From a virus, in the IMG/VR virus record IMGVR_UViG_3300042691_036629, positions 1 to 53,499 of that record: a DNA stretch of 53,499 bases; one strand, 5' to 3'. Of this stretch, positions 1,686 to 40,941 are shown piece by piece. Each line of letters starts with the position of its first letter. Within the stretch, counting starts at the first letter, position 1. Both the position numbers and the translations under genes were made by a program. The notes under the pieces are model-generated. The model searched no databases, was not told where the DNA came from, and saw only the letters and a list, made by a program, of their open reading frames with translations.

Positions 1686-1898
1686 ATGTATAAAGAAATA
1701 GATGTTGATTTCATAGAATTCTATGTTAAGAAAAAATATAATCAAAATTTAGACAAATATTTTGAAGTTTCTAGACCCGCTCTATCCGTTTGGAGAAAAA
1801 ATGGAATTCCACAAATTCGCGTAGATGAATTTATGAGAAGAGAAAAATCTTTTGATATTATTGAATTATTTTCAAGAATTTATAAAAGGGAGAGTTAA
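1686..1898 (+). CDS. small Cro/CI-type helix-turn-helix protein
   Basis: In this 70-residue protein the segment LDKYFEVSRPALSVWRKNG (about residues 22-40) fits a helix-turn-helix in which SRPALSVWR is the recognition helix and GIP the following turn, as in small Cro-like repressors. This suggests a phage transcription regulator, but I see no operator repeats to support a target. Its 3' end overlaps the upstream extension of the HNH frame, not the preferred HNH start. Confidence 0.65.
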   Translation: MYKEIDVDFIEFYVKKKYNQNLDKYFEVSRPALSVWRKNGIPQIRVDEFMRREKSFDIIELFSRIYKRES

Positions 1899-1932
1899 CA
1901 ATTTTATATATAATTATAAAATTGTTAATCTT

Positions 1933-2712
1933 ATGAAAGTATGTAGTAAATGTGGATTAGAAAAAGATTTTAGTGAGTATCATAAATTTAAACATTCAAA
2001 AGATGGTTTAAAGTCACAATGTAAAGTTTGTATTCTTTTAAAAGAGAAAGAAAGAAGATCAACAGATGAATATAAATTAAATCAAAAAGAATATAATCAA
2101 TCAATTCCAAAAGAAATTAAAAAATCAAATAGAAGAAAACACTATTTAAAAAACATAGAAAAAATATCCGAACAAAATAAAAAATATAGAGAAGATAACA
2201 AGGAATATTTTATTGAATATAATAAAAAATATAGAGAGGATAACAAAGAAAAAATATCTGATAAAAGTAAAAAATATAGAGAGAATAACAAAGAATCTAT
2301 TAAAGTATGGAGGGAAAATAATCCTGATAAAATTAAAGGATATAGAGAAAAATATTCAAAATCGGAATCTTGTAAAGAGCACCGAAAAAATTGGTATAGA
2401 TCTATAAAAAAAAGAAGTCCACATGTTCTGGCTTGGCGTACAATATTAAATAATACATTAAAAAGATTTGGTAAACAAAAAGAAGATGAAACTATTAAAC
2501 TTCTTGGATATTCTGCTATACAATTAAAGGAATATATCGAAAGTTTATTTACAGAAGGTATGAGTTGGGACAATTATGGTGAGTGGCATATAGATCATAT
2601 AAAACCAGTTTCATCATATGACTCAGATACACCAGTTGATGTTGTAAATTCTCTTGAAAATTTACAACCCTTATGGGCTTTTGATAATCTAAGTAAAGGA
2701 AATAAAATATAA
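1933..2712 (+). CDS. HNH homing endonuclease with N-terminal zinc finger
   Basis: From the chosen start the 259-residue protein opens with CSKCGLEKDFSEYHKF then CKVC, a two-CxxC zinc finger. A long Lys/Glu/Asn-rich middle has repeated YRE(D/N)NKE units. The C-terminal HNH nuclease contains WHIDHIKP, NLENLQPL and DNLSKGNK. The longer frame from 1852 adds 27 residues of poor quality that overlap the HTH gene. Two close relatives lie at 26451 and 38751. Free-standing HNH enzymes of this type spread between phages by homing. This copy sits next to the Dam-type gene, a possible target locus. Confidence 0.85.
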   Translation: MKVCSKCGLEKDFSEYHKFKHSKDGLKSQCKVCILLKEKERRSTDEYKLNQKEYNQSIPKEIKKSNRRKHYLKNIEKISEQNKKYREDNKEYFIEYNKKYREDNKEKISDKSKKYRENNKESIKVWRENNPDKIKGYREKYSKSESCKEHRKNWYRSIKKRSPHVLAWRTILNNTLKRFGKQKEDETIKLLGYSAIQLKEYIESLFTEGMSWDNYGEWHIDHIKPVSSYDSDTPVDVVNSLENLQPLWAFDNLSKGNKI

Positions 2713-3597: not shown

Positions 3598-3791
3598 TGA
3601 GTTATCAAATTGATAGTGATGGATTTGTAATATACAAAGGTGTTAAGTTGAGTTTAACGGTTGAACAGTTAAGTGATACTCGAATAATAACTGGTATATC
3701 AAGTGAAAAGTTGATTGAATATCAATACAAAAGAGAGATTGTTGAGATAAGAGATAAGAAGATAGATGAAATAATAAAACCACTCGATTGA
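3597..3791 (+). CDS. hypothetical protein, 64 aa
   Basis: It starts within the stop codon of the methyltransferase (TAATG), so it is translationally coupled to it. The sequence begins MSYQIDSDGFVIYKGVKLSL, looks beta-rich at the N terminus and helical and charged at the C terminus. The stop codon lies inside the terminator hairpin at 3776-3799. No family recognised. Confidence 0.6.
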   Translation: MSYQIDSDGFVIYKGVKLSLTVEQLSDTRIITGISSEKLIEYQYKREIVEIRDKKIDEIIKPLD

Positions 3792-3799
3792 GTGGTTTT
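3776..3799. terminator. bidirectional intrinsic terminator
   Basis: A 10-bp stem (AAAACCACTC / GAGTGGTTTT) with a GATT loop lies between convergent genes, with T-rich sequence on both sides. It includes the stop codon of the 64-aa gene. Confidence 0.8.
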
Positions 3800-3814
3800 A
3801 TTTTAAGTTTAAAA

Positions 3815-5221
3815 TTAAATCCTCCTAATTCCAGGCACAAACCCATATTTAAAGTTTTTCTTTGCCCATTCATAATCATCTTTATTCAATGGATTATCAT
3901 CGTTGCAACTTCCAGCCCAATAATAACCTTTTACTTCTTTAGGACCTTCTTTTAATGATTTTATCCTATTTCTATCACAATTAAAATTACCTCCTATTGA
4001 TCTTGGTGATCCTTCTAAAGAAGTTAATATATTAAATGAACAATCAAAACTACCACTAACTTTTCCAAATTTAAGAGGAATTTTTTTCAAACCATTATTA
4101 CTAATATTTACCGTTCCATCAACATCAACTGTTCCATCTGAGTTAATTTTATAATTCTTAATACCGAGTTCTGAACAAATTCCATCAATACCAAGATCTT
4201 TTTCATCTAAATCAACAACATATTTATCTTCCTGATCATTATAAACTCTATTATTTAGACAGAAAGTTCCAATTGACTTATTAAAATATTCATTTAATAT
4301 ATTATCAACCGTTTTTTTAAATTCACTTCTATTAACACCATACATATGTTTACTCGTATATAAATTAGTTATATCACGATCTAAACCATCCTCGATGTAT
4401 AATCCCTCTTCTTCATATTTTCTCTCCATTTCAGGACTTATTTCTTTATGAGTAGCTACAACTTTACCTGATCTATCTTTAACAGTATAAAGAGTAGGAT
4501 GGTATGGTTTTATATTCAAAACACCCAATGGGTTATTAATGTTTTTATCATTTTTATTTATCAAATAAGATATTAGTGATCCTTCTTGAACTTCTTTAAT
4601 TAAATACTTGACATTAACACCATCACTTTTATATTTCATTATCTTATCGTTAATTTCTCTTATTTTCTTATCATCATTAGATTTCTTAGCACTTTCTAAT
4701 TCATCCATTAATTTAGTTAAACGATTAGATTTATCTGTTCCAATTGTCATACAATTTGTCCAATTTCTATCTGTATCGGATCCAGTAATATCATATGGGT
4801 GTCTTGATATAACAACTAAAAGATCTTCTTTTGAAGTAGATGTTAAGGCTTTTCTTTTCTCATCCTCGACAAACTTTTTATTTAAATCTTCATTTTTAAA
4901 TCTAGTTAACAACTTACCAATTGTGGTTTCGTTTTTAGAATTATTAAACTTAGCACTTCCTTTAACATAATCAACAATCTGACAATCATTTTCTTTTAGA
5001 AATTTATCAATCTCTTCATGAATTTTTGAGACATATCCTTTTATTTCCTCTTTAACTAAAGGTATATAAATACGATAGTAATTTTTATCATGCTCATACT
5101 TATCACCAAGTTTCTTAAAAATATCTAAATATCTTTCCCTATCAAATTCTTTAACATATTCCCTAAATTGACTAGGTTTTAAAGCTTCGTTAAAATTTTT
5201 AAAACTATTTAAATGTTTCAT
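3815..5221 (-). CDS. leader-bearing phage protein with leucine-rich-repeat-like C terminus
   Basis: The 468-residue protein begins MKHLNSFKNFNEA, the shared leader discussed in the findings. The central part contains SRHPYDITGSDTDRNWTNCM (about residues 133-152), a stretch I associate with uncharacterised proteins of large phages. The C-terminal 90 residues look like short leucine-rich repeats (NISNNGLKKIPLKF, SFDCSFNILTSLEG, NFNCDRNRIKSLKEG). LRRs usually bind proteins. It is the last gene of a five-gene minus-strand run whose members all carry the leader. Function unknown, but head packaging is inferred from the leader. Confidence 0.75.
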   Translation of the reverse strand: MKHLNSFKNFNEALKPSQFREYVKEFDRERYLDIFKKLGDKYEHDKNYYRIYIPLVKEEIKGYVSKIHEEIDKFLKENDCQIVDYVKGSAKFNNSKNETTIGKLLTRFKNEDLNKKFVEDEKRKALTSTSKEDLLVVISRHPYDITGSDTDRNWTNCMTIGTDKSNRLTKLMDELESAKKSNDDKKIREINDKIMKYKSDGVNVKYLIKEVQEGSLISYLINKNDKNINNPLGVLNIKPYHPTLYTVKDRSGKVVATHKEISPEMERKYEEEGLYIEDGLDRDITNLYTSKHMYGVNRSEFKKTVDNILNEYFNKSIGTFCLNNRVYNDQEDKYVVDLDEKDLGIDGICSELGIKNYKINSDGTVDVDGTVNISNNGLKKIPLKFGKVSGSFDCSFNILTSLEGSPRSIGGNFNCDRNRIKSLKEGPKEVKGYYWAGSCNDDNPLNKDDYEWAKKNFKYGFVPGIRRI

Positions 5222-5257
5222 ATTTTTATTTTTTTTTTATATTTTTATTTTTTTATA

Positions 5258-6100
5258 TTATAAACTAATTATAACTTTTTCACCTTCAGCTACTATATTT
5301 TCACTTGGTATATAATCTAAATGATCTCTTAAAAGATCAACAAATCTATCTAAGAATTCTTTAGATGCATCTTTTATATTTATTGAAATTCCAGATGTGT
5401 AAAGTTTATTATCTAATTCCAAACTTCCAAATAATTTAACTGAATTAAATAAAAGAAATGTATTATAACTAAAAGAATATCCTTCATCTTCAATAAGATA
5501 TGATATTGTGTTAATATCTTTTAATAAATCTTTAATTTCTTCATTATTTTTTTTGATATCCTCTTCACTTTTACCATCATTTATGTATTCTGATAATGAG
5601 AATAATTTATTTAAAAATTTACATTCTTTTTCATAATCATCTTTATCGATAACTTTCCATATATCCGAATTAGTTTCTACATATCCATTTGATTTCAAAA
5701 ATCCATGTATAAAAGTCTTAATTTCATTATCATAACCTTTGAATTTATTACAATTAACATCTCGACCCATCTGTATGTCACTTCTAGTTGTGATTTTTCT
5801 CCTAATTTTACTTCTAAGTGTGTTTCTATCAAGTCCTCTGTTATTTATCTCATTCAAAAGTTGATCCATAAGTTCACTCAACTGATTGAATGATGCTAAT
5901 ATTATTTTTGTGTATTGTTCATTAGTAAGATTTCTTCCTATATACTTACACTCATGTGTTATATCACTTACTCTAGGATCCCCAATGGTCCAGTATTTAT
6001 TGCTCTCACCTGCGTAATTAGCGCTAGTCAATTGAACTAAGAACTTATCGCTTATTACTGTTAAATCAGTTGCCTCATTAAAATTTTTTAAATATTTCAT
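5258..6100 (-). CDS. leader-bearing hypothetical protein, 280 aa
   Basis: It begins MKYLKNFNEATDLTV, with the F-N-E-A form of the shared leader. The rest is mixed helix and strand with no recognised motif. A charged stretch near residues 180-200 (EDIKKNNEEIKDLLKDI) is likely a coiled coil. It is ten bases downstream of the 320-aa leader gene and co-oriented with it, so probably co-transcribed. Confidence 0.7.
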   Translation of the reverse strand: MKYLKNFNEATDLTVISDKFLVQLTSANYAGESNKYWTIGDPRVSDITHECKYIGRNLTNEQYTKIILASFNQLSELMDQLLNEINNRGLDRNTLRSKIRRKITTRSDIQMGRDVNCNKFKGYDNEIKTFIHGFLKSNGYVETNSDIWKVIDKDDYEKECKFLNKLFSLSEYINDGKSEEDIKKNNEEIKDLLKDINTISYLIEDEGYSFSYNTFLLFNSVKLFGSLELDNKLYTSGISINIKDASKEFLDRFVDLLRDHLDYIPSENIVAEGEKVIISL

Positions 6101-6110
6101 ATTTTACTCT

Positions 6111-7073
6111 TTATTTCTTATAAAATTCTTCTATTTTATCAACTCTTATTAATAATACATTAGAGTCAGTCCAAATTTCATGTCCTGGAGTTGGTTCTTT
6201 TAAATCATAAATTTTTTCATCATCATTATATGTATTCCCTCTATATTCATATGATGGTAAATTTCCAAATGATTTTTTATATTCTAAATAACTCATTTTC
6301 TTAATACCCATAGATTCTGGTGAGAATAAAGTATTTAGAACATCAATAGTTAAAGGTTTTTTTGGATTTTCCGAGAAAACCCAACTATCACCGGATGTAT
6401 CAACTTTACTACAAAATTCTAAAACATCTTCCCAATCTTCAATGGAATCAGCAGCTCGATTGGTCGATGACCTCATCCATGATTCGAAATCAATAGGATC
6501 ATCCGGATACATTAATTCATCTTTTGATTTTGGAATCCTTATAATATTCAGTTTTGATATATTATTAATATCAATATTTTGATTTATTTTATTACCTATC
6601 AAAACATTTAATAATTTTGAAAACTCATGAGTCAACTCGACATTGTGCATATCAAAATTAGGAACTATTCCCCAATTAGATCCATTAAAAGGGATAACCC
6701 TATATAAGTTATTTCTATATTCCATAAAAGTTCTCATTGAAGTTGAGCATATTAATTGTCTTTTTGGATAAGAACTCCAAGAGTTTAAATGATTTATAAG
6801 AGGAGTGTGTAGATAATTTTTACCAGAAACTCCTTGCATACTTTTTCTATAAGTAACACCATCATGTTTATATGAATTCCTAGGACTCCAATATGATGAA
6901 TTTACATAAAGATATGAATCATTAGATGAAATTGATCTGTATATGGGTCTATCTTCCCATTTAAAATCAGAACATTTTTCTTTTAAAATTCTTTCGAATT
7001 CTTCTTTAGTTAAACTTTTATTTTCATTTAAATTGAAATTTTCATAAAGTTTCAAATATTTTAAATATCTCAT
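6111..7073 (-). CDS. leader-bearing hypothetical protein, 320 aa
   Basis: It begins MRYLKYLKLYENFNLNENK, a longer version of the shared leader with YENF and LNE. The middle contains YRSISSNDSYLYVNSSYWSP and LICSTSMRTFMEYRNNLYRVIPF, reminiscent of ADP-ribosyltransferase R-S-x layouts (YRSIS, STS, E), but the motif order is not convincing and I do not assign the activity. It is in the middle of the five-gene leader run. Confidence 0.7.
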   Translation of the reverse strand: MRYLKYLKLYENFNLNENKSLTKEEFERILKEKCSDFKWEDRPIYRSISSNDSYLYVNSSYWSPRNSYKHDGVTYRKSMQGVSGKNYLHTPLINHLNSWSSYPKRQLICSTSMRTFMEYRNNLYRVIPFNGSNWGIVPNFDMHNVELTHEFSKLLNVLIGNKINQNIDINNISKLNIIRIPKSKDELMYPDDPIDFESWMRSSTNRAADSIEDWEDVLEFCSKVDTSGDSWVFSENPKKPLTIDVLNTLFSPESMGIKKMSYLEYKKSFGNLPSYEYRGNTYNDDEKIYDLKEPTPGHEIWTDSNVLLIRVDKIEEFYKK

Positions 7074-7104
7074 ATTAAAATTTTATTTTTATATATATTT
7101 TTTT

Positions 7105-7461
7105 TCATTTATAAAATGAATAACTTGCTGAAGTTATTTTTTCTTCACCTTCATCCGTATCAGTACCAATCTCAAAATATGATAATTGGTATCCGTTAGA
7201 TTTCATATGACCAATTACTGATTTCATATGATAGTAAACCTTCTCTAAGTCTTTAAAATCATTAATAGGTATAATGATTTGAAAATCATTTTTATCAAAA
7301 TCGTCTATCTCATTATTATCAATAATATCTTGCATTGTTATTTCATCACCATCACCATGTAAATATATATCATAATGATCCATTAGATCTTGTAAATAAT
7401 CAACTAAATCAATTAGCTGAAACTCTTCTGAACTTTCGTTAAATTTTTTTAAATGTTTCAT
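7105..7461 (-). CDS. leader-bearing small acidic protein, 118 aa
   Basis: It begins MKHLKKFNESSEEFQ. The body is acidic with a DxDxD-like run (HGDGDEITMQDIIDNNEIDDFD, residues 36-57 in part). It overlaps the stop of the gene upstream of it (7458) by four bases, so the pair is translationally coupled. No family recognised. Confidence 0.7.
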   Translation of the reverse strand: MKHLKKFNESSEEFQLIDLVDYLQDLMDHYDIYLHGDGDEITMQDIIDNNEIDDFDKNDFQIIIPINDFKDLEKVYYHMKSVIGHMKSNGYQLSYFEIGTDTDEGEEKITSASYSFYK

Positions 7462-7853
7462 AATTTATTTAATTTTATATTTATTTCCAAACTCGGTGAT
7501 TTTGTTAATGTCTTTTTTATTTCATATTCTGGGTATTCATCTAATAATCTATTAATACTACTATCAACTCTTTGTGATATTTTTAACCAATTTTCAAAAA
7601 ACTCAGTTATCTCAGTATCATTACTATTATATTGACTTGGGTTATAATACCATTGATTAAATGGTTTGTCTATATCAAAACCAATTGAACTTTTCAACCA
7701 AGTTGATATAACTAATCGATAATTAACACTCTTTTTATATGAATATTCACATCTGAAATTATCATCTTCTATTACTTCTCTGAAACAACTTTCGATATAC
7801 TCAATATCCAATTCGTTTTCACTACTTTCATTAAATTTCTTTAAATATTTCAT
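7458..7853 (-). CDS. leader-bearing small protein, 131 aa
   Basis: It begins MKYLKKFNESSENEL, almost identical over the first twelve residues to its downstream neighbour while the remainder differs. That pattern suggests a selected leader rather than a recent gene duplication. It is the first gene of the minus-strand leader run; the promoter should lie in 7854-7914, the divergent gap. Function unknown. Confidence 0.7.
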   Translation of the reverse strand: MKYLKKFNESSENELDIEYIESCFREVIEDDNFRCEYSYKKSVNYRLVISTWLKSSIGFDIDKPFNQWYYNPSQYNSNDTEITEFFENWLKISQRVDSSINRLLDEYPEYEIKKTLTKSPSLEINIKLNKL

Positions 7854-7893
7854 AATTCTATATATTAATTCTCACTATTCAAAATTAATTTCC

Positions 7894-10989: not shown

Positions 10990-11979
10990 ATGAAAATAAA
11001 AAATAATATGCAATCAGAAAAAACCATACAATTCTTAAAAAAATTAAAAGAGAGTGGTAATTGGAATGATAATTATGATTACTCTGAAGTTAATTATATT
11101 TCAAACAGAGATAAAATAATTATAATTGATCAATATAATATAAAACATCTAATAACACCTTCAAATATACTTAAAGGTACTAATCTAAATATAACAAATT
11201 CATTAGATAAAAATCTATATCTGAAAAATAAATTTCAAGAAATACATAAGAATAAATATGATTACTCCAAAATTAATTACGTTAACAACGAGACTCTTGT
11301 TGAAATAATATGTCCTGAACATGGTGTTTTTGAGCAAACACCCAATACACACACTAGTGGAAGCGGTTGTCCAAAGTGTGGAATTATTAGAAATGGAGAT
11401 AGTAAAAGAAAAAATATTAATGATTTCATAAAAGAGTCAAATGTTTCTCATAACAATAAATATGATTACTCACTAGTGAAATATAAAAACTCAACAACTA
11501 AAGTTAAAATAATATGTCCGGAACATGGAGAATTTGAGCAAACTCCAAGTAAACATATAAATGGACAAGGTTGTGTTAGATGTTCTAAGATAAACAATAT
11601 TGAAGATTTTATAAAAAAATCAAATGATATACACCGTGGTAAATATAATTATTCACTTGTAGAATATAAAAACTCAACAACTAAAGTTAAAATAATATGT
11701 CCTGAACATGGTGAGTTTGAGCAGTCACCAAATACACATCATAATGGAGGTGGTTGTATTAAATGTTATGGTAATCAAAATACCACAATTGAAGAATTCA
11801 TTTCAAGGTCCAATAAAATACATCAAAGTAAATATAATTATTCTAAATCAGAATATAAAAATTCACACACAAAATTAACAATAATATGTCCAGAACATGG
11901 TGAGTTTGATTTGCTAGGAAATTGCCCCTCAATCACCAGCAAATCATTTAAGTGGGAAAGGATGTTATATATGCAATAA
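10990..11979 (+). CDS. tandem zinc-finger repeat protein (probable 5' part of the helicase gene)
   Basis: This frame carries about five copies of a roughly 61-65-residue unit: a helix with (I/K)H.(N/G)KY(D/N)YS, a strand KVKIICPEHGEFEQ(T/S)P, then a GxGCxxC zinc knuckle. The first copy is degenerate. A 39-base stretch at 11481-11519 is repeated identically at 11664-11702. The last unit breaks off after HGEFD, but the rest of the unit (QSPANHLSGKGCYICN) is encoded in the +1 frame, which runs on without stop into the 12044 helicase. The frame closes at 11979. Such repeats probably bind nucleic acid. See the frameshift finding. Confidence 0.75.
   Translation: MKIKNNMQSEKTIQFLKKLKESGNWNDNYDYSEVNYISNRDKIIIIDQYNIKHLITPSNILKGTNLNITNSLDKNLYLKNKFQEIHKNKYDYSKINYVNNETLVEIICPEHGVFEQTPNTHTSGSGCPKCGIIRNGDSKRKNINDFIKESNVSHNNKYDYSLVKYKNSTTKVKIICPEHGEFEQTPSKHINGQGCVRCSKINNIEDFIKKSNDIHRGKYNYSLVEYKNSTTKVKIICPEHGEFEQSPNTHHNGGGCIKCYGNQNTTIEEFISRSNKIHQSKYNYSKSEYKNSHTKLTIICPEHGEFDLLGNCPSITSKSFKWERMLYMQ
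11481..11702 (+). repeat. direct repeat within zinc-finger units
   Basis: Two identical 39-base copies (11481-11519 and 11664-11702) lie 183 bases apart, a multiple of three, within adjacent zinc-finger units. Near-copies occur at 11275 and 11846 where the protein repeat is less similar. This indicates recent tandem duplication or gene conversion. Confidence 0.7.
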
Positions 11980-12043: not shown

Positions 12044-14560
12044 ATGGAACCATTTGAATTATTTATTATTATTGGTCAAGGTAAACTACCAGATGATTTT
12101 AAATCAATTGCAAATACCGATGCTAACTCGGAAGAAAGACTTCTATCCATAAAAGAATTGAAAATGGAACTTGAAAGAGAAATTGAATTAGAAGATAATA
12201 ACCTAGTGGAAGTTGTAAATGAAAAATCTACAAATGATAATAATTCTCTTTTAACAAATGAAATCAATCAAATCGATGATATTGATGATGATATAATGAA
12301 TTCTAAAAATGAAGATAAAAAATTACCATCAATGGTTGGTATGAATGATTTTCACACACTAGATAATGATTACTATGCAAGAATGGATGAAGAAGCATTC
12401 AACTCATTAATTAATTTTAAAACTCAAAGAATGTGGAATGGAGTTTTGAATAAAATTTTAAATGTTGATGATATTAAAAATGAGAGTGGTGGGAAATATT
12501 TTACTATAATAAAAAATAACTTTATAAATGAGTATAATGATGTTATTAAAATTAAAGTACCCAATGATTATAAAAATCACACACCCAATTTAATGCAAAA
12601 ATTAACAATTCATAGACTATTAACATCAGATTCAAAATCTTTACTAAATCTATCCGGTACAGGAGCTGGTAAAACAATAGCTATGATTTTAGCTAGTAGA
12701 ATTATAAATTCTAAAATAAGTATTATAATTGCATTAAACTCAACAGTTGAACAAATATCAAATGAGATAGTAAAATCTTTTCCTAATAGTTTAGTATTTA
12801 CTGAACATGAGATCGGACGAGTTTATGATGTTAATGAACATAATTATTTAGTTTTAAATTATGAAAAATTTCAACAATCATATTCAGAAGAAGTTTATCA
12901 AGATTTGACAAATAAAAATATTATAGACTTTGTTGGTATTGATGAATTACAGAATGTTAAACAAAGAGGTGAAGATGAATCAGTAAGAAGAGGCGTTTTG
13001 AAGAAATTAATTGGTCGTGTTAGAGATAAAAATAAAAACTCATACATTTTAGGTATGTCAGCAACACCAGTTATAAATAATTTGAGTGAAGCTAAGTCTC
13101 TATTGGAGATTGTTACTTTAAAAGATTATAGTGACTTAAATACACATAAAAGTATATCAAATGCACTTAGAGTATATCAACAATTTTTATTAAATGGAAT
13201 TAGATATCTACCACAGTATGAGATTGAATTAGATAAAAAGTATATCGAAATTGATGGTTCTGACTTAATCGATGATATATTAAAACTACCAAAGAATGAT
13301 TTTATCTCGTTAGAAAAATTACTCTTACCAAAGAAATTAGAATCCGTTAGAGAATTTCTAAAAAAAGGAGTATGTATTTATACATACTATGTTGACGGAT
13401 TTAAGAACGAAATATATGATTTTGTGACAAAAAATGGATTTACTTGTGTTTGTTGCACTGGTGAAGAAAATGGAATTATAAATATAGATGGTGTTGAAAT
13501 GTCTATAAGAGAGTATAACTTAAAAAAGTTTATAAAAGGTGAAGTTGATATTATTATTGGTTCAAAACCAATAACAACCGGTGTTGATGGATTGCAAAAT
13601 GTTTGCAATACCTTGATAGAAATCACACAACCTTGGACAAACTCAGATGAAAAACAGTTACATGGTAGATTTATTAGACAAGGATCATCTTTTGATAAGG
13701 TAACTGTTATAATACCACAAGTTAAAATTGATATAGATGATAAAGTTTGGTCATGGGATAAACAGAGAACAAATTTAATAGAAAATAAAAGAACTTTAGC
13801 TGATTTAGCAGTTGATGGTAAAATACCTTCAAAAATATTACCAAGTAGAGAAACTATGTTCAATAAGTCTATTGAATCATTACAATCATGGAAAGACAGA
13901 GTTAACAAAGGTGATATAATTAATGGTGATAGAAGAAACATAAATATTAATTTATATCCAGAATTGGATGAAGAGAAAAGATTAATAAAAATTGAATCAG
14001 AATTATCTGAATTTAATAGAAGAGGGAAAATAACTCGTTCATCTACAATGAATAAAGAATTCAACAACAATCCAGATTCTTGGTTTAGATATCATTCTCT
14101 TAGAAGAGAAAGTATGAAAGATTGGACTGAGATACCATATGAGTATATTGCTACTAAAATTAAAAACAAAAATCATCGTGTTGTTGATTTTGGATGTGGT
14201 GAAAATTTATTCAAAAATTTTATACCAAATAATGAGGTAATATCATTTGATCATATAGCAATAGATGATAATGTTATTGCATGTGATATGAGTGATGTTA
14301 GTGAATATTTGAGTGATGAAAGTGTTGATGTTTGTGTTTTTAGTTTATCACTATGGGGTACAAATTATAAAGATTATATTAAAGAAGCTTATCGTGTTTT
14401 AAACTGGAATGGTAATATTTATATAGCAGAACCATCTAAAAATTATGAAACACAAGAGGATGAAAAGGAATTAATAGACTTAATAAAAGAATTTGGATTT
14501 GAAATTGTTGGTGGTATCGAAAAGAGAAGTAAGTTTATTTACATAAGAGGTATAAAATAA
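12044..14560 (+). CDS. SF2 helicase fused to an Rrp8-like methyltransferase
   Basis: The 838-residue protein has SF2 helicase motifs: I GTGAGKT (205-211), II DELQ (300-303), III SATP (339-342), V near TTGVDGL and VI HGRFIRQG (540-547). Residues from about 700 form a class I SAM methyltransferase: DFGCG (715-719), then SFDHIAIDD, CDMSD, VFSLSLWGTNYKDYIKEAYR. The last stretch is the signature of Rrp8, the rRNA m1A methyltransferase family (usual form LSLMGTN). The frame is open upstream to 11918, where it completes the zinc-finger repeat of the preceding ORF. Likely roles are remodelling and methylating RNA or a nucleic acid complex. Confidence 0.85.
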   Translation: MEPFELFIIIGQGKLPDDFKSIANTDANSEERLLSIKELKMELEREIELEDNNLVEVVNEKSTNDNNSLLTNEINQIDDIDDDIMNSKNEDKKLPSMVGMNDFHTLDNDYYARMDEEAFNSLINFKTQRMWNGVLNKILNVDDIKNESGGKYFTIIKNNFINEYNDVIKIKVPNDYKNHTPNLMQKLTIHRLLTSDSKSLLNLSGTGAGKTIAMILASRIINSKISIIIALNSTVEQISNEIVKSFPNSLVFTEHEIGRVYDVNEHNYLVLNYEKFQQSYSEEVYQDLTNKNIIDFVGIDELQNVKQRGEDESVRRGVLKKLIGRVRDKNKNSYILGMSATPVINNLSEAKSLLEIVTLKDYSDLNTHKSISNALRVYQQFLLNGIRYLPQYEIELDKKYIEIDGSDLIDDILKLPKNDFISLEKLLLPKKLESVREFLKKGVCIYTYYVDGFKNEIYDFVTKNGFTCVCCTGEENGIINIDGVEMSIREYNLKKFIKGEVDIIIGSKPITTGVDGLQNVCNTLIEITQPWTNSDEKQLHGRFIRQGSSFDKVTVIIPQVKIDIDDKVWSWDKQRTNLIENKRTLADLAVDGKIPSKILPSRETMFNKSIESLQSWKDRVNKGDIINGDRRNININLYPELDEEKRLIKIESELSEFNRRGKITRSSTMNKEFNNNPDSWFRYHSLRRESMKDWTEIPYEYIATKIKNKNHRVVDFGCGENLFKNFIPNNEVISFDHIAIDDNVIACDMSDVSEYLSDESVDVCVFSLSLWGTNYKDYIKEAYRVLNWNGNIYIAEPSKNYETQEDEKELIDLIKEFGFEIVGGIEKRSKFIYIRGIK

Positions 14561-14566
14561 AAAATT

Positions 14567-15286
14567 ATGAAAAAACAATATGTTTACATTGGTCAGTTCT
14601 ACCATATAAAAAATAAAGAACTACCACTTGATTATAAGTTTGGAGTTACTGATGATCTAGAACAAAGAGAATATTCGTTAGGTCGTACAAAATCACCTAT
14701 AAAGTATATGATTTTAAAAGCTTGGGAATTACCATTAAACGTCAAAAGAGAAAAGGTTGAAAAGATGATTGCCTTAATTTTTGATGAAAATAAGTATGAT
14801 GGTTGTGAGTGGTATGATGTTGATGGTGAAACTTTTCAAGGTAAAATAAAGGAGTTATTTGAAATAATATCAGATATGATTGATGACCTCAATTTCACTT
14901 TTGTTGAAGTAGATTTAGATAAAAATAGTGACGGTGATATTGTTGAAAAAGAAATTGAAAAAGAAATAAGAACTGGTAAAAAAGCACCTTGGACAAATTT
15001 GGAGGTTAATATAGAAGGTAACCTAATAAAACTTGATAGTGCTAAATCAACATATGGTAAATCAATTGAAGAAATTTTAAAAACTATTGATCCTGTACAG
15101 TTCTCTATTGATTTCCCAAGAATATTTAAATTGAATAAAAGTGATTATCCTGAGTATAAATGGTCTTCTCTTCTCAAAATTGGAGATTTTTATTTAGATA
15201 CATATACAAACACGGCTCAAAAGAAAAGAGATATTTGTAACGCTCTTACTAAATATAATATTAAAGGTGAAGTTCAAATTTATTAA
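14567..15286 (+). CDS. GIY-YIG-like (T5orf172-type) protein
   Basis: In this 239-residue protein the first 90 residues fit a GIY-YIG/T5orf172 fold: YVYIG (5-9), KFGVTDDLEQREYSL (25-39, with the Arg of the active site at the usual place), a following helix VEKMIALIF and EWYDVD (the E-W-F/Y motif). The C-terminal half is unassigned. It follows the helicase by six bases and ends at a strong terminator, so it is the last gene of that transcript. It may be a homing-type nuclease or a domesticated one. Confidence 0.7.
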   Translation: MKKQYVYIGQFYHIKNKELPLDYKFGVTDDLEQREYSLGRTKSPIKYMILKAWELPLNVKREKVEKMIALIFDENKYDGCEWYDVDGETFQGKIKELFEIISDMIDDLNFTFVEVDLDKNSDGDIVEKEIEKEIRTGKKAPWTNLEVNIEGNLIKLDSAKSTYGKSIEEILKTIDPVQFSIDFPRIFKLNKSDYPEYKWSSLLKIGDFYLDTYTNTAQKKRDICNALTKYNIKGEVQIY

Positions 15287-15290
15287 AATA

Positions 15291-15319
15291 AAAAAAGAGA
15301 GACTAAGTCTCTCTTTTTT
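15291..15319. terminator. intrinsic terminator
   Basis: A 13-bp stem (AAAAAAGAGAGAC / GTCTCTCTTTTTT) with a TAA loop lies five bases after the GIY-YIG-like stop codon. The T run follows on the plus strand, and the A run makes it usable from the minus strand too. Confidence 0.85.
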
Positions 15320-15325
15320 AACTTC

Positions 15326-15640
15326 TTAAAATTCAGCAAATCTCCCCCAACCTATACTATAAGAAATATTTTTATCTAAAGTTCCATAAGTAGTTGTTAA
15401 ATAAGCTATATTAATGCTGGATTTAGCTTATCAACATTAGGAACAATTTTATATGTTTCTCCGGTTATAACTAATTCTGAAATTGGTGGTAGCTCTGGTT
15501 CCATTGCTAATATATTTAGTTTTGGTTTAATTTTAGTTGGTTCGTTCTATATGGTGGAAAGTCATGTTCATGTTTATAGAGCTGGTATAATTCTAGATGA
15601 GAGAGGTGTTGGTTTATCTATACCAATAAATAAAAAATAA
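15326..15640. pseudogene. two opposed protein-like fragments between terminators, possible gene relic
   Basis: This 350-base gap between two terminators has no good ATG-started gene. On the minus strand, 15427 to 15326 reads INIAYLTTTYGTLDKNISYS then IGWGRFAEF and a stop, like a beta-barrel fragment. On the plus strand, 15401 to 15640 is an 80-codon open frame without an early ATG. It reads AGFSLSTLGTILYVSPVI and ends RAGIILDERGVGLSIPINKK. Both look like Bacteroidetes outer-membrane protein fragments, lying head to head at about 15416. They may be an inverted remnant of a host gene. Confidence 0.35.
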
Positions 15641-15667
15641 AAAAGAGAGTTAAAAACTCTCTTTTTT
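15641..15667. terminator. bidirectional intrinsic terminator
   Basis: Stem AAAAGAGAGTT / AACTCTCTTTT with an AAA loop, followed by further T. It serves the minus-strand gene ending at 15667 and blocks read-through from the plus strand. Its GAGAG core resembles the terminator at 15291. Confidence 0.8.
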
Positions 15668-17522: not shown

Positions 17523-18614
17523 TTATTGTTCTGGTGTAATTATTTTATCAATTTCAGCTACTTTATCTTTGTTTTCTTCTTTACTTATGAAATCAACATA
17601 ACTAGCAACTTTCTTAATATCATCTGGTTTTTTAGCTTTCAACTCACCTAATTTTTTAACTAAGTCTTCTTGTCCTTGAGCTTTAGCCTCTTCAAATTTA
17701 TAAGAGTCAACTTCTTCACCTTTTTCGTTAACAATTCTTTCTAAGGCTCCAGTTTCGTATTCTTTCATCGGATCTGGTTGACCTTTTCTTAAAATCTCGG
17801 TTAATTTAACTTTGTCTCCTTTTTTAACTTCACCAGCAATTTTTGCTAAAACTTCTTCTCCTTCATCGACTACTAATTTTTTACTACCAGATTTAACAAC
17901 TTGTATATATCCTGGATGTTTAGTTAATAAATCACCTGTTAATTTCTTAATTTCAATTTCAACATCACCCCAATCTAAAACAATGTTACCACCTTCAGAT
18001 TCTTCACCACCTTCAATTTTCTTTTCTTCTTTATATTTTTTGATTTGTTCATCAATATACTTGTCATCAGTAACTTTCTTTTTGAAGTCATCAACAATTG
18101 CTTTAATCTCAGCTACACGAGCAGCTTTCTTACCAGCTAAATCTTTAGCCGCTGCCACTTTTTTATCAAACTCCATTTTAAGTTCTGCCGCTTTTTGTTT
18201 AACCATACCTAACATTACACGACCAGCAATCATACCATCTTTGATAGCACCTTCGAGAATTAAATTAACATTAGACTCTTTAACAGCTTGAATTTCTTTA
18301 TCAATCTCAACACATTTTTCGTCAAATTCTTTATGAAATTGATCTATTATTTGATTAAGTATTCCTTCGTCTTCAGCTTTGTTTATATTGTCTGTTGTGG
18401 TTTTTAAAAGACTATCCAACATAGTAGTTAGTTTTTTCTTTAACTCTTCTCTTTTTAATCCTTTTTTGAAATCATCTTTTAGTGATTTAAAAGGAGCTGC
18501 TATACCACTTAAAAAGTTTTTAAATGCTCCTTTAGCAGCCGCTAATAAAGAACCTAAAAACTCCTCATTTATTTGACTATCTTTAAATTGTTGATAATTG
18601 TTAATTCTCTTCAT
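17523..18614 (-). CDS. leader-bearing, alanine/lysine-rich helical protein (virion-associated?)
   Basis: The 363-residue protein begins MKRINNYQQFKDSQINEEF, an extended form of the shared leader. It is followed by the small-residue hydrophobic helix LLAAAKGAFKNFLSGIAAPF (about 21-42). The remainder is mostly long helix with high Lys/Glu content, resembling scaffold or internal head proteins. A basic domain with GYIQVVKSGSKKLVVDEG lies around 235-255. It is the first gene of the 15.7-18.6 kb minus-strand operon. Confidence 0.7.
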   Translation of the reverse strand: MKRINNYQQFKDSQINEEFLGSLLAAAKGAFKNFLSGIAAPFKSLKDDFKKGLKREELKKKLTTMLDSLLKTTTDNINKAEDEGILNQIIDQFHKEFDEKCVEIDKEIQAVKESNVNLILEGAIKDGMIAGRVMLGMVKQKAAELKMEFDKKVAAAKDLAGKKAARVAEIKAIVDDFKKKVTDDKYIDEQIKKYKEEKKIEGGEESEGGNIVLDWGDVEIEIKKLTGDLLTKHPGYIQVVKSGSKKLVVDEGEEVLAKIAGEVKKGDKVKLTEILRKGQPDPMKEYETGALERIVNEKGEEVDSYKFEEAKAQGQEDLVKKLGELKAKKPDDIKKVASYVDFISKEENKDKVAEIDKIITPEQ

Positions 18615-21553: not shown

Positions 21554-21557
21554 AATA

Positions 21558-24153: not shown

Positions 24154-24154
24154 T

Positions 24155-24211
24155 ATGAACAATCACTTAACTAAAGAGGAATTGGAAAGATATAGAGAAA
24201 TACTTAAATAA
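24155..24211 (+). CDS. possible 18-aa peptide
   Basis: ATG one base after the folD stop, ending TAA six bases before the next gene, encodes MNNHLTKEELERYREILK. It is a neat amphipathic helix filling the gap between two genes. It is too short to be sure it is translated. Confidence 0.3.
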   Translation: MNNHLTKEELERYREILK

Positions 24212-24217
24212 ATTAAA

Positions 24218-25198: not shown

Positions 25199-25244
25199 AA
25201 CTTTATATTTATTTTAAATATAAAATAAAAAATAATATTATTTA

Positions 25245-35123: not shown

Positions 35124-36257
35124 TTAATGTATTTTCTCAACAATAAATTGAATTTTATTTACTTTTATTTCAGATACACTGTTCATTGAGTATACCTTAT
35201 TAAATACTAAATCTTTATTATCAATCAACTTATTCATAAATTCCGTTGTCTTTTTAAATTCATAATCAGCCATATTAAGTCTATTAATGGAATAAAAAGA
35301 AGCTTCTTCTGAACCACATTTACCATAAGAAACTAATGATGTATTTTTATGAGGACTTTTATCTATCTTATTTAAAAGATCGGTACCTAAAATAGTAAAT
35401 AATCTTCTCGTTAATTCATAATTAATATTTCCAAGGTTTTTAAAATTCCTCAATAAATAGTACTCATTTTTATTATCAAATAGAAAATTAACTTTAGTTG
35501 TAAATTCGCCAAATCCTTCATCACTTAGATAACCAGATATTCTTTGAGCAACTCTATTAACTTTCTCTCCTAAATCTTTAGTATAATTTTCATCAATTGT
35601 GATTGTTACATAGAATTTATCTGATTGTTTATTTGATGTTATTTGTCTATCTGGGAAAAGATATTCCTCCCACTCATCAATTAAAATATCTTCGATATAA
35701 ACTTTAATATCTTCAGATTTCTCAACATTACTAAATTTAGCACAAACTATAATTGCTGGATTTTTAAGTAAAAAATCTTCTAAACTCTTTTTATCATCTT
35801 TAAAACTAGATAAATCATAAACATCATTATCATTTAATCTATCACCAGTAATATAATCACCAACATTAATTTCATCTTTAGTGATGTAAATAAAATCTCT
35901 TTTTGTTGGAGTTACTCTACTTGGATCATTACCACCTTCCTTTATATAAAAGTTCCATTTGTCTAACATTAAACCAAAACCTAGTTTACTTTTTGGAAAA
36001 TCTTCTTTAGTTATTTTTCTCCAAGGTTCTTTAACAATAGATCCATCTGATCCTGATGAAGATACAATAGATATAAATTTAGAATCATTAGTTTTCTTTT
36101 TAATTTCTTTATATCTATAATTAAGTAAAGGAAATAATTTGAATATCTTTTTAAGTAAAAATCCACCAATTAAAACCGGTGCGTGTAAAATCATTCTTTT
36201 CTCTTCAGGTCTTAACTCCTCATTTATGTAATTATCATATTTCTTTATGTGTTTCAT
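35124..36257 (-). CDS. leader-bearing hypothetical protein, 377 aa
   Basis: Begins MKHIKKYDNYINEELRPEEK, the shared leader in its Y-x-x-Y-I-N-E form. A moderately hydrophobic stretch APVLIGGFLLKKIFKLFPLL (about 30-49) follows, possibly an amphipathic or membrane-active helix. The remaining chain is mixed alpha/beta. It follows the 301-aa leader gene by one base. Function unknown. Confidence 0.7.
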   Translation of the reverse strand: MKHIKKYDNYINEELRPEEKRMILHAPVLIGGFLLKKIFKLFPLLNYRYKEIKKKTNDSKFISIVSSSGSDGSIVKEPWRKITKEDFPKSKLGFGLMLDKWNFYIKEGGNDPSRVTPTKRDFIYITKDEINVGDYITGDRLNDNDVYDLSSFKDDKKSLEDFLLKNPAIIVCAKFSNVEKSEDIKVYIEDILIDEWEEYLFPDRQITSNKQSDKFYVTITIDENYTKDLGEKVNRVAQRISGYLSDEGFGEFTTKVNFLFDNKNEYYLLRNFKNLGNINYELTRRLFTILGTDLLNKIDKSPHKNTSLVSYGKCGSEEASFYSINRLNMADYEFKKTTEFMNKLIDNKDLVFNKVYSMNSVSEIKVNKIQFIVEKIH

Positions 36258-36258
36258 A

Positions 36259-37164
36259 TTAAAAGTTTATTTTAGCTCCGATTGTATTAACACCGGTTAT
36301 TCTAGTGAAATTGAATTGAACATCATGTCCATATAAAGAAACTGTTTTGCTGTATGATAGATTAAGAATAGGCATTAAAATCGGTTGGTTATCAGTATCT
36401 AATCCTCTAACAAAAAAATAGTTTATATGTAATGGAAATTGTGGCTTAGATAATAAATCCAAGTCACTTAAAGATAATTCAGGTAAGTTTTTATTCTCTT
36501 TAAACGCTAAGAATTCATTCTCCAACAAAGAAACCGATAGAGTACTTTTACCAACTTCATCATTTGTGACAATATTTGGATATTTCTCTATAATAGTATC
36601 AGCAAACTCTTTTATAGAACCATCATTTGTTTGTTCCACTAATGTTGTTGTATCTTTTACAGGATCCTTAGTAATTACCTCTTTCGGCATTGTAGGCTTT
36701 AATAAAGAAGAAGCTGCTAAACCAATTGCACCAACAGTTGTTGCTATACCCTCATCTTTTTTAACAGTCATCATATCATCTTTAGCGAAGTTATCATAGC
36801 TCATAACTTTAGGTTGTTTAGTTTCACCTTCACCTTTTGTAAAATCTTGTCTTCTTCTAAAAAGAATATCTTTAAATGATTTTACTTTTTTATCTCTATT
36901 TGATCCGTGACTTCTGGATTTTCTCATCGGGACCTTTTGAAACACTCTATTAACACCACTTGGATTATAAGGAATTGCTATTTCATCTGGCTCAGAGCTT
37001 TTGGAACTTGCCCAATTTGTTCCAATAGTTTGACCAGCTAAACCAGAAGCAGCTGATCCATAACCCATACCACCACCGATAAAAGGTCCACCAGTTGCTG
37101 ATGTTTCATTGATATCATCGTTGTCAAACGATTCGAATGTTTCATAAGAGTTTAAATATTTCAT
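36259..37164 (-). CDS. leader-bearing structural-type protein, 301 aa
   Basis: Begins MKYLNSYETFESFDNDD, a leader variant. It continues with a glycine/serine/alanine-rich stretch (GGPFIGGGMGYGSAASGLAG), a basic region with RKSRSHGSNRDKK and RRRQDF, a small hydrophobic segment TVGAIGLAASSLL, and a beta-rich C-terminal domain (PLHINYFFVRGLD, LSYSKTVSLYGHD). Low-complexity N terminus plus basic patch fit a DNA-contacting virion protein. First gene of a two-gene minus-strand pair. Confidence 0.7.
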   Translation of the reverse strand: MKYLNSYETFESFDNDDINETSATGGPFIGGGMGYGSAASGLAGQTIGTNWASSKSSEPDEIAIPYNPSGVNRVFQKVPMRKSRSHGSNRDKKVKSFKDILFRRRQDFTKGEGETKQPKVMSYDNFAKDDMMTVKKDEGIATTVGAIGLAASSLLKPTMPKEVITKDPVKDTTTLVEQTNDGSIKEFADTIIEKYPNIVTNDEVGKSTLSVSLLENEFLAFKENKNLPELSLSDLDLLSKPQFPLHINYFFVRGLDTDNQPILMPILNLSYSKTVSLYGHDVQFNFTRITGVNTIGAKINF

Positions 37165-37482: not shown

Positions 37483-38076
37483 ATGAATAACCTAGAAAAA
37501 CTTGAAATTAAAAGGCTTCTAAAGGAGTTATATTTTATAGAGTCAGATTATGAATATAAAAACGAGTTGATAAATCAACTTGAACTTGAATTTATTGACT
37601 CGGTTAATAACTATTTAGATAATCATCCGACACTAAAAGAGGCTTTTGATGATAAAATTAATCAAAGATTTCAAGAAACTATAAATAAAAAAATAGAAGA
37701 ATCAAAAAAAGAAGTTGCTATTGTTGAAAAAGAAATAATAGAAGTTGATCCTAAGGTTAAGAAGCTTTATAGAGAAATAGTTAAGAAGACACACCCAGAT
37801 AAAGTAAAAGATAGTGACTTAAATGATCTTTATATAGAATCGACTAAATATTATGAGAAAGGTGATATTTTATCAATCTATAAGATATGTGACGAATTAA
37901 ACTTAGAATATGAGTTTGGTTTAGAAGAAAATGAGTTGATTAAAAATAAAATAACATCATATAAAGAAAAGATAGAACTTTTACAATCAACGTTTACTTG
38001 GAAATGGAGTTCTACTGAAGATAGTTCTAAAAATCAAATAATTGAGGATTATATAAAAATACAATTATTTAGATAA
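37483..38076 (+). CDS. J-domain-like protein
   Basis: In this 197-residue protein an N-terminal coiled coil (1-80) is followed by VKKLYREIVKKTHPDKVKDSD, with the HPD tripeptide at 104-106 flanked by two helices. This is the DnaJ J-domain layout, though the segment is short and helix I is unusual. J domains stimulate Hsp70 ATPase, so the protein may recruit host DnaK for phage assembly or replication. The 3' end overlaps the convergent leader gene by eight bases. Confidence 0.65.
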   Translation: MNNLEKLEIKRLLKELYFIESDYEYKNELINQLELEFIDSVNNYLDNHPTLKEAFDDKINQRFQETINKKIEESKKEVAIVEKEIIEVDPKVKKLYREIVKKTHPDKVKDSDLNDLYIESTKYYEKGDILSIYKICDELNLEYEFGLEENELIKNKITSYKEKIELLQSTFTWKWSSTEDSSKNQIIEDYIKIQLFR

Positions 38077-38698
38077 TATTTAGTTTAACTTTTCTATCAT
38101 CTAATAAAGTTTGTAGCTCTTCCTTTCTGAAATTTTTTTTATAAATATCATTTAACTTTAGAGGATTTTGAAGTTCCCAATCACTTCCGTTACTTGTTGT
38201 GTAAATATAATTCTCATCACCATCAACTATTTCAATTGTTTTTGATGAAAGTTTATCATAGAATCTTTTTACATCATTGTTAACTTTATATAACTTAGAA
38301 TCACCCCATCTATTCAATGATTCATTCCAAATTTGGAATATTATGTAAAGTGGATTCTCTAACTCATTTTGTTCTTGGCTAAAGATAAACATAAACTTAC
38401 ATGGTTTGTTTAAAAATGTTTGATAAGTTTCTGTATCTTCTAATTGAGATTTTTTAAGAGCTAAACTTGATAAAGAATTTATAAACTCAACATTATTAAA
38501 AAGAAAATCTAAATCTAGATTATCTTTAAGTTCTGTTGGTAATTTTAAAGTATCAAATATATCAACCTCTTCAGCGTTGATTGAATTTAAAAGAATATCA
38601 TGCCATATATTCAGCGATTCCATTAAGTCAACTGATTGAAAAGTAAGGTCAATAACTAATGACTCTTTATATTTTTTGTATGATTTTATCCACTTCAT
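38069..38698 (-). CDS. leader-bearing hypothetical protein, 209 aa
   Basis: Begins MKWIKSYKKYKESLVIDLT. The leader is almost identical to that of the gene at 39493 (MKWIRNYKLFKES), though the bodies are unrelated by eye. The remaining sequence is acidic and mixed alpha/beta. It is divergent from the third HNH gene across an AT palindrome. Confidence 0.7.
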   Translation of the reverse strand: MKWIKSYKKYKESLVIDLTFQSVDLMESLNIWHDILLNSINAEEVDIFDTLKLPTELKDNLDLDFLFNNVEFINSLSSLALKKSQLEDTETYQTFLNKPCKFMFIFSQEQNELENPLYIIFQIWNESLNRWGDSKLYKVNNDVKRFYDKLSSKTIEIVDGDENYIYTTSNGSDWELQNPLKLNDIYKKNFRKEELQTLLDDRKVKLNII

Positions 38699-38750: not shown

Positions 38751-39506
38751 ATGAAGGTTTGTTCTAAATGTAAGATATCAAAAGACTTTAGTAATTTTCA
38801 TAATTGTTCTAAATCTAAAGATGGTTTAAAATCAGCTTGTAAAGAGTGTCGTAACTTAGATAGTAAGATTCGAAGAAAAAGTGAGAACTGTAAAATAAAA
38901 GAAGAAGAATATAAAAAAAATAATATTGATAAAATAAAAAAATATAAAAAGGAATATTATTTAAAAAATAAGGAGGAAATTATAAAAAATAGTAAAAAAT
39001 ACTATACAGATAACAGAGATTATGTGAATAGTAGGAATAGTATTTATTATTCAAAAAATAAAGAAAATATTTCCAAATATCAAAAAGAGTATTATGTTAA
39101 TAACAAAGAAATATTAAACGAATATAAAAAAAATTGGTTCAATGAGAAATATAAATCTGATGAGATTTTTAAATTAAAGAATAGTATTAGAACTCTAATA
39201 AGAACATCTCTTAAAAAAAGTGGATTTGAAAAAAAATCAAAAAGTGTAGATATATTAGGATGTGATATAGAAGAATTTAAAATTTACTTAGAGAGTAAAT
39301 TTGAAGATTGGATGTCTTGGGATAATTATGGTAAATATAAGGGATATCCAAAATCAGGATGGGAGATAGATCATAAAATACCACTAGCTTCCGCTAAAAC
39401 AGAAGAAGATATTATTAATTTAAATCACTTCACCAATTTACAACCACTTTGTGGATATATAAATAGAAATATTAAAAAAGATAAAATATACTATGAAATG
39501 GATTAG
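38751..39506 (+). CDS. HNH homing endonuclease with N-terminal zinc finger
   Basis: The 251-residue protein starts CSKCKISKDFSNFHNCSKSK then CKECRN, followed by YYxxNKE-type repeats (YYLKNKEEI, YYTDNRDYV, YYSKNKENI, YYVNNKEIL) in about 15-residue steps. The HNH nuclease is LESKFEDWMSWDNYG, GWEIDHKIPLAS, NHFTNLQPLCGYINRNIKK. Closest to the 26451 copy. It overlaps the next gene start by 14 bases and lies between two genes with near-identical leaders, consistent with insertion into what was one locus. Confidence 0.88.
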   Translation: MKVCSKCKISKDFSNFHNCSKSKDGLKSACKECRNLDSKIRRKSENCKIKEEEYKKNNIDKIKKYKKEYYLKNKEEIIKNSKKYYTDNRDYVNSRNSIYYSKNKENISKYQKEYYVNNKEILNEYKKNWFNEKYKSDEIFKLKNSIRTLIRTSLKKSGFEKKSKSVDILGCDIEEFKIYLESKFEDWMSWDNYGKYKGYPKSGWEIDHKIPLASAKTEEDIINLNHFTNLQPLCGYINRNIKKDKIYYEMD

Positions 39507-40941
39507 AAATTATAAATTATTTAAGGAATCTAAAGATAATTCAAAATACAACCCGAAAAATATAGTACAAGAGATTTGTATTAGTATGATTTTATTAAAT
39601 AATGAATTTCTCGATCCTATACTGGATAGAGGTTTAAAAGCAAGATATTCAGAAGACTCAAGTGTCTTCTTAACAGATTTAAAAAACTTATTATTAGCAA
39701 AAAATAGACTTACTCTTGGTAGATTTGTTGATTCTAAAACTTGTGTAGAGGATGATGAGATTTCTAAAATAAATGGATTCTTTAATGAAGTTGACTTCAG
39801 TATAGATAAAGACTGGAATAAACTATCAGATAGTAGAACAACCGCTAGAAACTTAATGGATAAACTATTAGGTGATGAGAAATTAACTTCTGATAGAATT
39901 AGAAAAATTTATTGGATAGGACCTAATAAATCTAAAGATTTTAATGAAGATATTGTTATAGAAACAACTGAGGGTAAACAATTTTCTATTTTCTTAAATA
40001 AAAATCTATCATCACAAAAAACATCATCTTTTAATACATTTGGTGATGATTTAATCGGATCTAATATGGAGAAATTGTATTCAGAAGAATACATGGAGAA
40101 ATGGAATAAGTTAGTTCAAACTTGGGTTACTATAATTTATGAAAATGCTGACAAACCAATTCAAAGACATATTGAAAAGTTTATAGATCCACGAAGAGTT
40201 GAAACTATGGGTTACTTTGAGTATTTTGATATCAAACATCAAGATCCAAGATATAAACACTTAGGCGAATTCTTTAGAGAGTTTGATAAGAATATTTTAA
40301 AGTTTTCTGAATTATGTGATGAGATATGGAAGAATAAAGAAAACTGTTTTATGGATGTTGAAAGAGTTAAAAAAGAATGGTATGAAGCTAAGATTGTAAT
40401 TCTTAATTCTAAAATTCTTGAAAACTTATTAACAAATTCATTAAAAAGTGAATTCTCTGATGATATACAAAAGTTAGATAATGGAATGAAACGAGCTGAA
40501 GGTACAGTTAAAATGAAATTATTTAAAACTATTGTTGAAAAAATGGGTTGTTTGGAAAGAACACTTTATTATGTTTCAAATGGTGGTAATCAATTTAGTG
40601 TAATTCCAGCAAGAGATTTCTTTAGAAAGTATTACAATGATATTGATTTAAGCTTTGATTACCACGTTAAGTTTAATTATAATGAAGAAGATGAAGAATT
40701 AAATGATTTCAAAATCAGTTTGAATTTACAACTTGATGGTGAAAATTTAATTGATATGATCATATTCGTTAAATTTACTGGTGGTGAACTTTCTTCTAAA
40801 TTAAGTGCTAAATACAAATTTGAATTAGTTGATGACTTCAATTATCGAATTGCTAAGAAAAGACTTTCTGAATTTGAACCTAAAGAGGATCAAGGTGATG
40901 AAGAAGATTTTGAAGAATCGGAAGAAGATCAACTAAATTAA
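39493..40941 (+). CDS. leader-bearing structural-type protein, 482 aa
   Basis: Begins MKWIRNYKLFKESKDNSKY. The rest is helical and charged, with a very acidic C terminus (EDQGDEEDFEESEEDQ). Acidic tails are common in scaffolding and portal-associated proteins. The start lies inside the end of the HNH gene. It precedes the giant tail gene in the same direction. Confidence 0.7.
   Translation: MKWIRNYKLFKESKDNSKYNPKNIVQEICISMILLNNEFLDPILDRGLKARYSEDSSVFLTDLKNLLLAKNRLTLGRFVDSKTCVEDDEISKINGFFNEVDFSIDKDWNKLSDSRTTARNLMDKLLGDEKLTSDRIRKIYWIGPNKSKDFNEDIVIETTEGKQFSIFLNKNLSSQKTSSFNTFGDDLIGSNMEKLYSEEYMEKWNKLVQTWVTIIYENADKPIQRHIEKFIDPRRVETMGYFEYFDIKHQDPRYKHLGEFFREFDKNILKFSELCDEIWKNKENCFMDVERVKKEWYEAKIVILNSKILENLLTNSLKSEFSDDIQKLDNGMKRAEGTVKMKLFKTIVEKMGCLERTLYYVSNGGNQFSVIPARDFFRKYYNDIDLSFDYHVKFNYNEEDEELNDFKISLNLQLDGENLIDMIIFVKFTGGELSSKLSAKYKFELVDDFNYRIAKKRLSEFEPKEDQGDEEDFEESEEDQLN

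Follow-up and report, generated by a model that had tools for sequence, protein, structure and literature searches.

A shared N-terminal leader in a megaphage-related virus fragment: a predicted, greatly expanded variant of T4 capsid targeting

The internal head proteins of T4 are the closest described counterpart of the genes considered here, five consecutive genes on the minus strand (3815-7853) of a virus fragment, whose products begin with a common short leader. The fragment is the incomplete 172-kb IMG/VR record IMGVR_UViG_3300042691_036629 (171,766 bp), of which bases 1-53499 are called the window. In T4, the system of IPI, IPII, IPIII, Alt and gp21 uses an N-terminal leader of about 10 residues that starts with MK, has its key residues at positions 4 and 7 and carries Glu at the cut site, with diverse bodies behind one tag. 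gp21 cuts after L/I-x-E, and in the IPIII leader residues 4 and 7 were mapped as necessary for targeting and residues 8 and 10 for processing, which is blocked by Asp at position 10 (PMC9026906). T-even internal proteins are described as diverse defence proteins with only the capsid-targeting sequence in common (PMC3012670). The leader described here is likewise short and starts with MK, is conserved at positions 4 and 7, has a Glu at the predicted cut site and stands before diverse bodies, and the relatives of the fragment, like T4, have a protease, capsid protein, portal and late sigma factor of T4 type. The set differs from that of T4 in that the leader is MK[YH]LKxF..E rather than MKTYQEFIAE, often with Phe at the third residue before the cut (P3), the protease is fused to the scaffold, and about 30-140 tagged genes are found per record versus a handful; moreover, the set is known here from genes alone.

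Two further systems invite comparison. In Agrobacterium phage Atu_ph07, gp53-gp62 (the phrog_11975 / phrog_12810 family) are also consecutive genes with one short leader ending in L-x-E and bodies homologous to gene 3 of our unit, and they lie in a cluster of virion proteins according to the available parts of that phage's report; its leader, however, is MRWEQLTE and its cassette is largely one paralogous family. Those parts of the report contain no description of the leader (PMC6102473). The inner-body (ejection) proteins of phiKZ and SPN3US, like the cargo proposed here, form a large internal load that is cleaved after Glu by a gp21-related protease (gp175 / gp245). In contrast, most SPN3US propeptides are 111-254 residues long, the phiKZ motif is S/A-x-E, nine SPN3US substrates are known, and there is no short genome-wide leader. 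A literature search, with most subscription journals outside its coverage, found no megaphage tag of this kind. The T4 capsid-targeting sequence is long known; what is new here is that the leader has another sequence and is used on such a scale, that its genes are marked by promoter motif and strand, and that the junction is conserved across phages. We propose that this would be a greatly expanded, lineage-specific variant of T4 capsid targeting.

The leader, its spread and the genes behind it

The five open reading frames (ORFs) and their N-termini were as a previous sequence-only reading had described them, and all start with ATG. That reading had seen F-N-E followed by Ser or Ala in every leader, which holds for four of the five, while gene 3 has a longer variant with L-Y-E and then Asn. 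It had also called the five bodies unrelated. With the leader removed, no match was found among them (BLASTP, 1e-3), but parts of them recur in other proteins: two further tagged proteins contain one part of the gene 4 protein, and the C-terminal region of the gene 5 protein is seen again in one tagged and one untagged protein. The unit is compact, with TTAATATATA upstream, five genes that overlap or are separated by short gaps, and a closing hairpin. A run of five tagged genes in the record has p = 0.0016 by label shuffling.

The fragment is related to T4-type megaphages of about 640 kb. The closest complete relatives, with ~63% identity in the baseplate wedge protein, are LR745206.1 (634,780 bp) and LR756502.1 (642,428 bp). 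Both are megaphages known from metagenomes, whose sources were a Japanese subsurface sample and a French lake (PMC9723777). Both relatives were taken whole, genes were called with a simple ORF caller, and the counts given are of ATG genes. Leaders were identified with a two-block model anchored on the Glu at a 2% false discovery rate (shuffled decoys). Comparing the leader across related phages, which the sequence-only reading had suggested, gave tagged genes in 141 of 893 cases in LR756502 and 111 of 866 in LR745206, with the Glu junction kept in homologues; in the record itself the count was 31 of 296. These 283 leaders amount to ~1 in 6 to 1 in 10 genes across the giant-phage group. Rather than the special cassette that had been suggested, the five genes are a minor part of a tagged set that extends over the whole genome.

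The consensus is M-K-[YH]-[LI]-K-x-[FY]-...-E/[SNEA], where the slash marks the predicted cut. Position 4 is Leu/Ile in 272 of 283 leaders and position 7 is Phe/Tyr in 249, and P3 is F in 65, I in 62, L in 58, T in 35 and Y in 27. Positions 4, 7 and the terminal Glu coincide with the residues mapped in the T4 IPIII leader. A strict pattern matched 20 genes of the 172-kb record versus 0.08 expected from shuffled N-termini, and none of 558 internal Met positions. Since the leader model is anchored on Glu, a count was also made with Glu not required; Glu followed MKx[LI][KRN]x[FY]N in 54 of 58 cases. The prefix pattern was also frequent in LR756504 (36) and LR756500 (16) and infrequent in LR756501 (5), and it was missing or almost missing from PAU, PTm1, MA9V-2, pT24, MaF61, Lak-B1 and two Erwinia phages. 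A stricter pattern was found in 76 IMG/VR stretches, and in several cases the protease-scaffold gene is on the same contig.

Tagged genes were also set apart by strand and upstream motif. In this record, 85% of them oppose the local majority strand versus 21% at random, and in the relatives 54% and 62% do so versus 25% and 29%. Upstream ATATATA was present at 129 of 139 tagged transcription starts versus 358 of 932 untagged ones, and TATATTTG at 0 of 139 versus 135 of 932. The latter resembles the Bacteroidota housekeeping promoter (TAnnTTTG). ATATATA also precedes capsid, portal, protease-scaffold and tape-measure genes, and the class that it marks would be a late one. Motifs of either promoter-like class are often only 3-9 nucleotides (nt) from the ATG in the record and the relatives, a spacing that suggests that many transcripts may be leaderless or have a very short leader.

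This arrangement bears on a reading in which conservation acts on the nucleic acid, the leader region serving late genes as a translation-start or 5'-mRNA element and encoding MKYLKKF only incidentally. In favour of this, the leader begins at the start codon, and in many cases a promoter-like motif is within 4-9 nt of the ATG. However, codons are used in the leader as in the genome at large (e.g. Glu GAA/GAG 0.68/0.32 vs 0.67/0.33) and, therefore, it is the protein that is under selection; the same upstream motif also precedes capsid, portal and tape-measure genes, which lack the leader. We regard such an explanation as scarcely credible.

Another possible explanation is that the leader is simply the inherited N-terminus of one fast-diverging paralogous family, with no role as a tag. 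With leaders removed, the 141 tagged proteins of LR756502 fall into 113 BLAST groups, a count that exaggerates diversity, since 49 LR756502 proteins, mostly tagged, are joined by a profile. Together with 30 proteins of LR745206 these form a superfamily of 79 with a D-D-G-F motif, 62 of which are tagged, as a single-family origin would have it. Outside this superfamily, though, the leader is found on lysozyme, SET, GNAT, HNH, RNA-ligase and glycosidase domains, as well as on the families of genes 3 and 5, which are unrelated, and homologues swap it for other Glu-ending leaders. This explanation was already disfavoured and is highly improbable. The superfamily consists of small paralogous proteins with a helix, for example at 13051-16154 and 20622-36490 of LR756502. 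Genes 1 and 2 were considered as members, which their profile E values (0.05 and 15) support weakly or not at all.

Head-assembly genes and cleavage junctions

The head module of LR756502, as identified by PHROGs, contains a T4-type major head protein, a portal, a head-maturation protease (E 6e-28) and a gp55-like late sigma factor. A T4-type prohead protease is present in both complete relatives and at 80 IMG/VR loci, and its GE-x-x-HP and SSR motifs are kept in four phages. In the relatives it is fused to a scaffold with the 14-residue repeat YSEY[IL]AE/NLDKNIA, and 76 IMG/VR homologues each have 9-12 near-identical repeats with one cleavage-like [ILV]AE site per repeat. In LR756502 the fusion lies at 225272-227371. 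The capsid protein, which matches 490 phage records, mainly T4-like cyanophages, has SINE/NAY in 19 of 19 distinct N-termini readable through the site, and QINE/NAY in LR756502. Sequence searches of the PDB with the capsid and protease proteins returned nothing.

Homologues of the window proteins in other phages keep the junction under different leaders. Those of gene 5 have unlike leaders with Glu directly before the start of the conserved domain (ALKPSQF), at the junctions FNE/A, LLQE/A, LLSE/A, SIDE/A, NINE/A, MVNE/V and LLE/A; the Erwinia phage homologues of gene 5 were without such a leader. Leaders of gene 3 homologues (MRYQEFIIE/A, MQTFKQFLSE/A, MKLQELYE/A) resemble T4 MKTYQEFIAE, which was confirmed on ipII and ipIII. 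In Atu_ph07, the ten consecutive genes gp53-gp62, several of them homologous to gene 3, begin with M[RK]W and have L-x-E at residues 6-8 (M[RK]W.[QD]L.E; MRWEQLTE/S-type). They lie within coding sequences 31-76, where, in the available part of the report, 29 of 46 products were detected in virions by electrospray ionization tandem mass spectrometry (ESI-MS/MS), a count given for the cluster and not per gene (PMC6102473). If detection were random within the cluster, 0 of 11 such genes would be detected with p = 9e-7, a figure that derives from the same cluster-level count and not from individual detections. Atu_ph07 gp53 (MF403008.1 39484-41820) is tagged and has, besides a domain like that of gene 3, a zeta-toxin/kinase domain (Pfam E 1.5e-14).

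The junctions also help to weigh whether the leader might be an uncleaved amphipathic N-terminal helix that sends late proteins elsewhere, e.g. to a membrane or an intracellular phage compartment. By the consensus, the spacing of L4, F7 and F/Y10-11 would give an amphipathic helix with Lys on the opposite face, and one membrane-type protein bears the leader. A retained helix would leave unexplained the near-invariant Glu followed by Ser/Ala/Asn and the Glu at the domain boundary under unrelated leaders, and homologues with T4-like leaders suggest the head as the destination. A retained helix is unlikely.

Features of the unit and other genes of the window

The unit is listed in Table 1 together with other tagged genes, of which at least five more were found in the window above the 2% shuffled-decoy threshold.

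Table 1. Coordinates of the five-gene unit and of further tagged genes in the window (aa, amino acids; a slash marks the predicted cut)
Feature	Position	Strand	Length	Leader/next residue	N-terminus	Remarks
TTAATATATA, late-promoter-like motif	7859..7868	-				5 nt upstream of the unit's first ATG; motif class enriched before tagged genes
Gene 1	7458..7853	-	131 aa	MKYLKKFNE/S	MKYLKKFNES	leader codons 7853-7827
Gene 2	7105..7461	-	118 aa	MKHLKKFNE/S	MKHLKKFNES	leader codons 7461-7435; 4-nt overlap with gene 1
Gene 3	6111..7073	-	320 aa	MRYLKYLKLYE/N	MRYLKYLKLYENFN	leader codons 7073-7041
Gene 4	5258..6100	-	280 aa	MKYLKNFNE/A	MKYLKNFNEA	leader codons 6100-6074
Gene 5	3815..5221	-	468 aa	MKHLNSFKNFNE/A	MKHLNSFKNFNEA	leader codons 5221-5186; conserved domain begins directly after Glu
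Hairpin	3773..3802	-				13-bp stem then T-rich tail; terminator-like on both strands; ends unit
Tagged gene	17523..18614	-	363 aa	MKRINNYQQFKDSQINE/E		leader model
Tagged gene	35124..36257	-	377 aa	MKHIKKYDNYINE/E		leader model
Tagged gene	36259..37164	-	301 aa	MKYLNSYETFE/SFDNDDINE		leader model
Tagged gene	38069..38698	-	209 aa	MKWIKSYKKYKE/S		68% identical orthologue retains leader
Tagged gene	39493..40941	+	482 aa	MKWIRNYKLFKE/S		63% identical orthologue retains leader

Pfam and PHROG scans of the five proteins of the unit gave weak, uninformative matches only. None of these matches points to the T4 internal proteins or Alt, in scans that did not compare the T4 internal proteins directly. 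By eye, gene 3 had seemed ADP-ribosyltransferase-like (YRG and STS-like motifs). This assignment was not adopted: the AlphaFold model was weak (predicted local distance difference test, pLDDT, 60), a Foldseek search of the PDB gave no match, and Pfam scans of the homologues returned no such domain. The model of gene 5 (pLDDT 79) had no significant PDB match.

Also by eye, homing or HNH/GIY-YIG-type endonuclease-like genes and repeat-rich zinc-binding-like proteins are scattered among the phage genes (window 1852-2712, 26451-27152, 38751-39506, 10990-11979 and 14567-15286). PurH-like and PurN-like (purine synthesis) and nicotinamide phosphoribosyltransferase-like genes were seen as well, and a NusG-like gene lies at the start of the window; the coordinates of this group are 47010-48713 and 39-596 in the window and 54017-54562 and 76850-78430 in the record.

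Proposed packaging and its significance

The leader is quite likely a lineage-specific capsid-targeting sequence cut by the prohead protease, and the five genes a late operon of a genome-wide set of delivered cargo. The idea of a T4-like tag cut after Glu, raised by the sequence-only reading, has strong comparative support from the residue positions, the protease, scaffold and capsid sites of the relatives, the promoter motif of the head genes, the E/A junctions, the T4-like tags on homologues and the Atu_ph07 cluster. Around the leader and its spread, the relatives' head genes and sites, the promoter-motif class and the conserved junctions, which are all observed, the following course may be suggested. 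Tagged proteins would be made late, and the leader, chiefly residues 4 and 7, would dock them in the scaffold core while the prohead grows. The scaffold-fused T4-type protease would then cut after the leader Glu while digesting the scaffold and trimming the capsid protein. The mature proteins would stay in the head with the DNA and be delivered at the next infection; late timing, docking, cleavage, packaging and delivery are the parts of the scheme that we infer. The five genes would be one late operon of a cargo set that may exceed 100 proteins in the complete relatives.

Several observations weigh against this proposal. The presence of tagged proteins in virions of the phage and its megaphage relatives is predicted from sequence, and the indirect virion support from Atu_ph07 is at the level of the cluster, the individual detections lying outside the available part of that report. 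To our knowledge, 141 kinds of cargo are far above any known head. The leaders do not follow the strict (L/I)-x-E motif of gp21, or the (I/L)-x-E-type P3 that had been expected, since four of the five in the window have F-N-E, with Phe in place of the T4 Ile/Leu, and only gene 3 has L-Y-E. The register of the Glu varies, mostly over residues 8-13, and among the proteins with the leader are also an RNA ligase and a membrane-type protein of the PQ-loop kind, neither of them obvious as cargo. Finally, a prohead protease, which the sequence-only reading had proposed to look for in this genome, was not found in the incomplete 172-kb fragment, either by family or with the relative's protein; both complete relatives have one. 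That reading had gone on to cast the five proteins as injected early host-takeover effectors; this was not supported as worded and is a matter of inference, and fold searches with two cargo proteins gave nothing.

We lean towards the view that roughly 1/10 to 1/6 of megaphage genes would encode tagged head cargo, with more than 100 late-made proteins delivered by way of one short signal, a repertoire far above those of phages in the literature covered. If the proposal is correct, sequence alone would suffice to predict virion-delivered proteins from a large and almost wholly unannotated share of megaphage genes, and these would be a source of candidates for anti-defence and host takeover. It would also explain why tagged genes are oriented against their neighbours. 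Reciprocal best matches in the sister genome, found for 24% of tagged genes versus 48% of other genes, would be as infrequent as expected of an arms-race payload. The leader would be a second short packaging signal beside that of T4, and the particle would hold an unusually large set of proteins along with its DNA.

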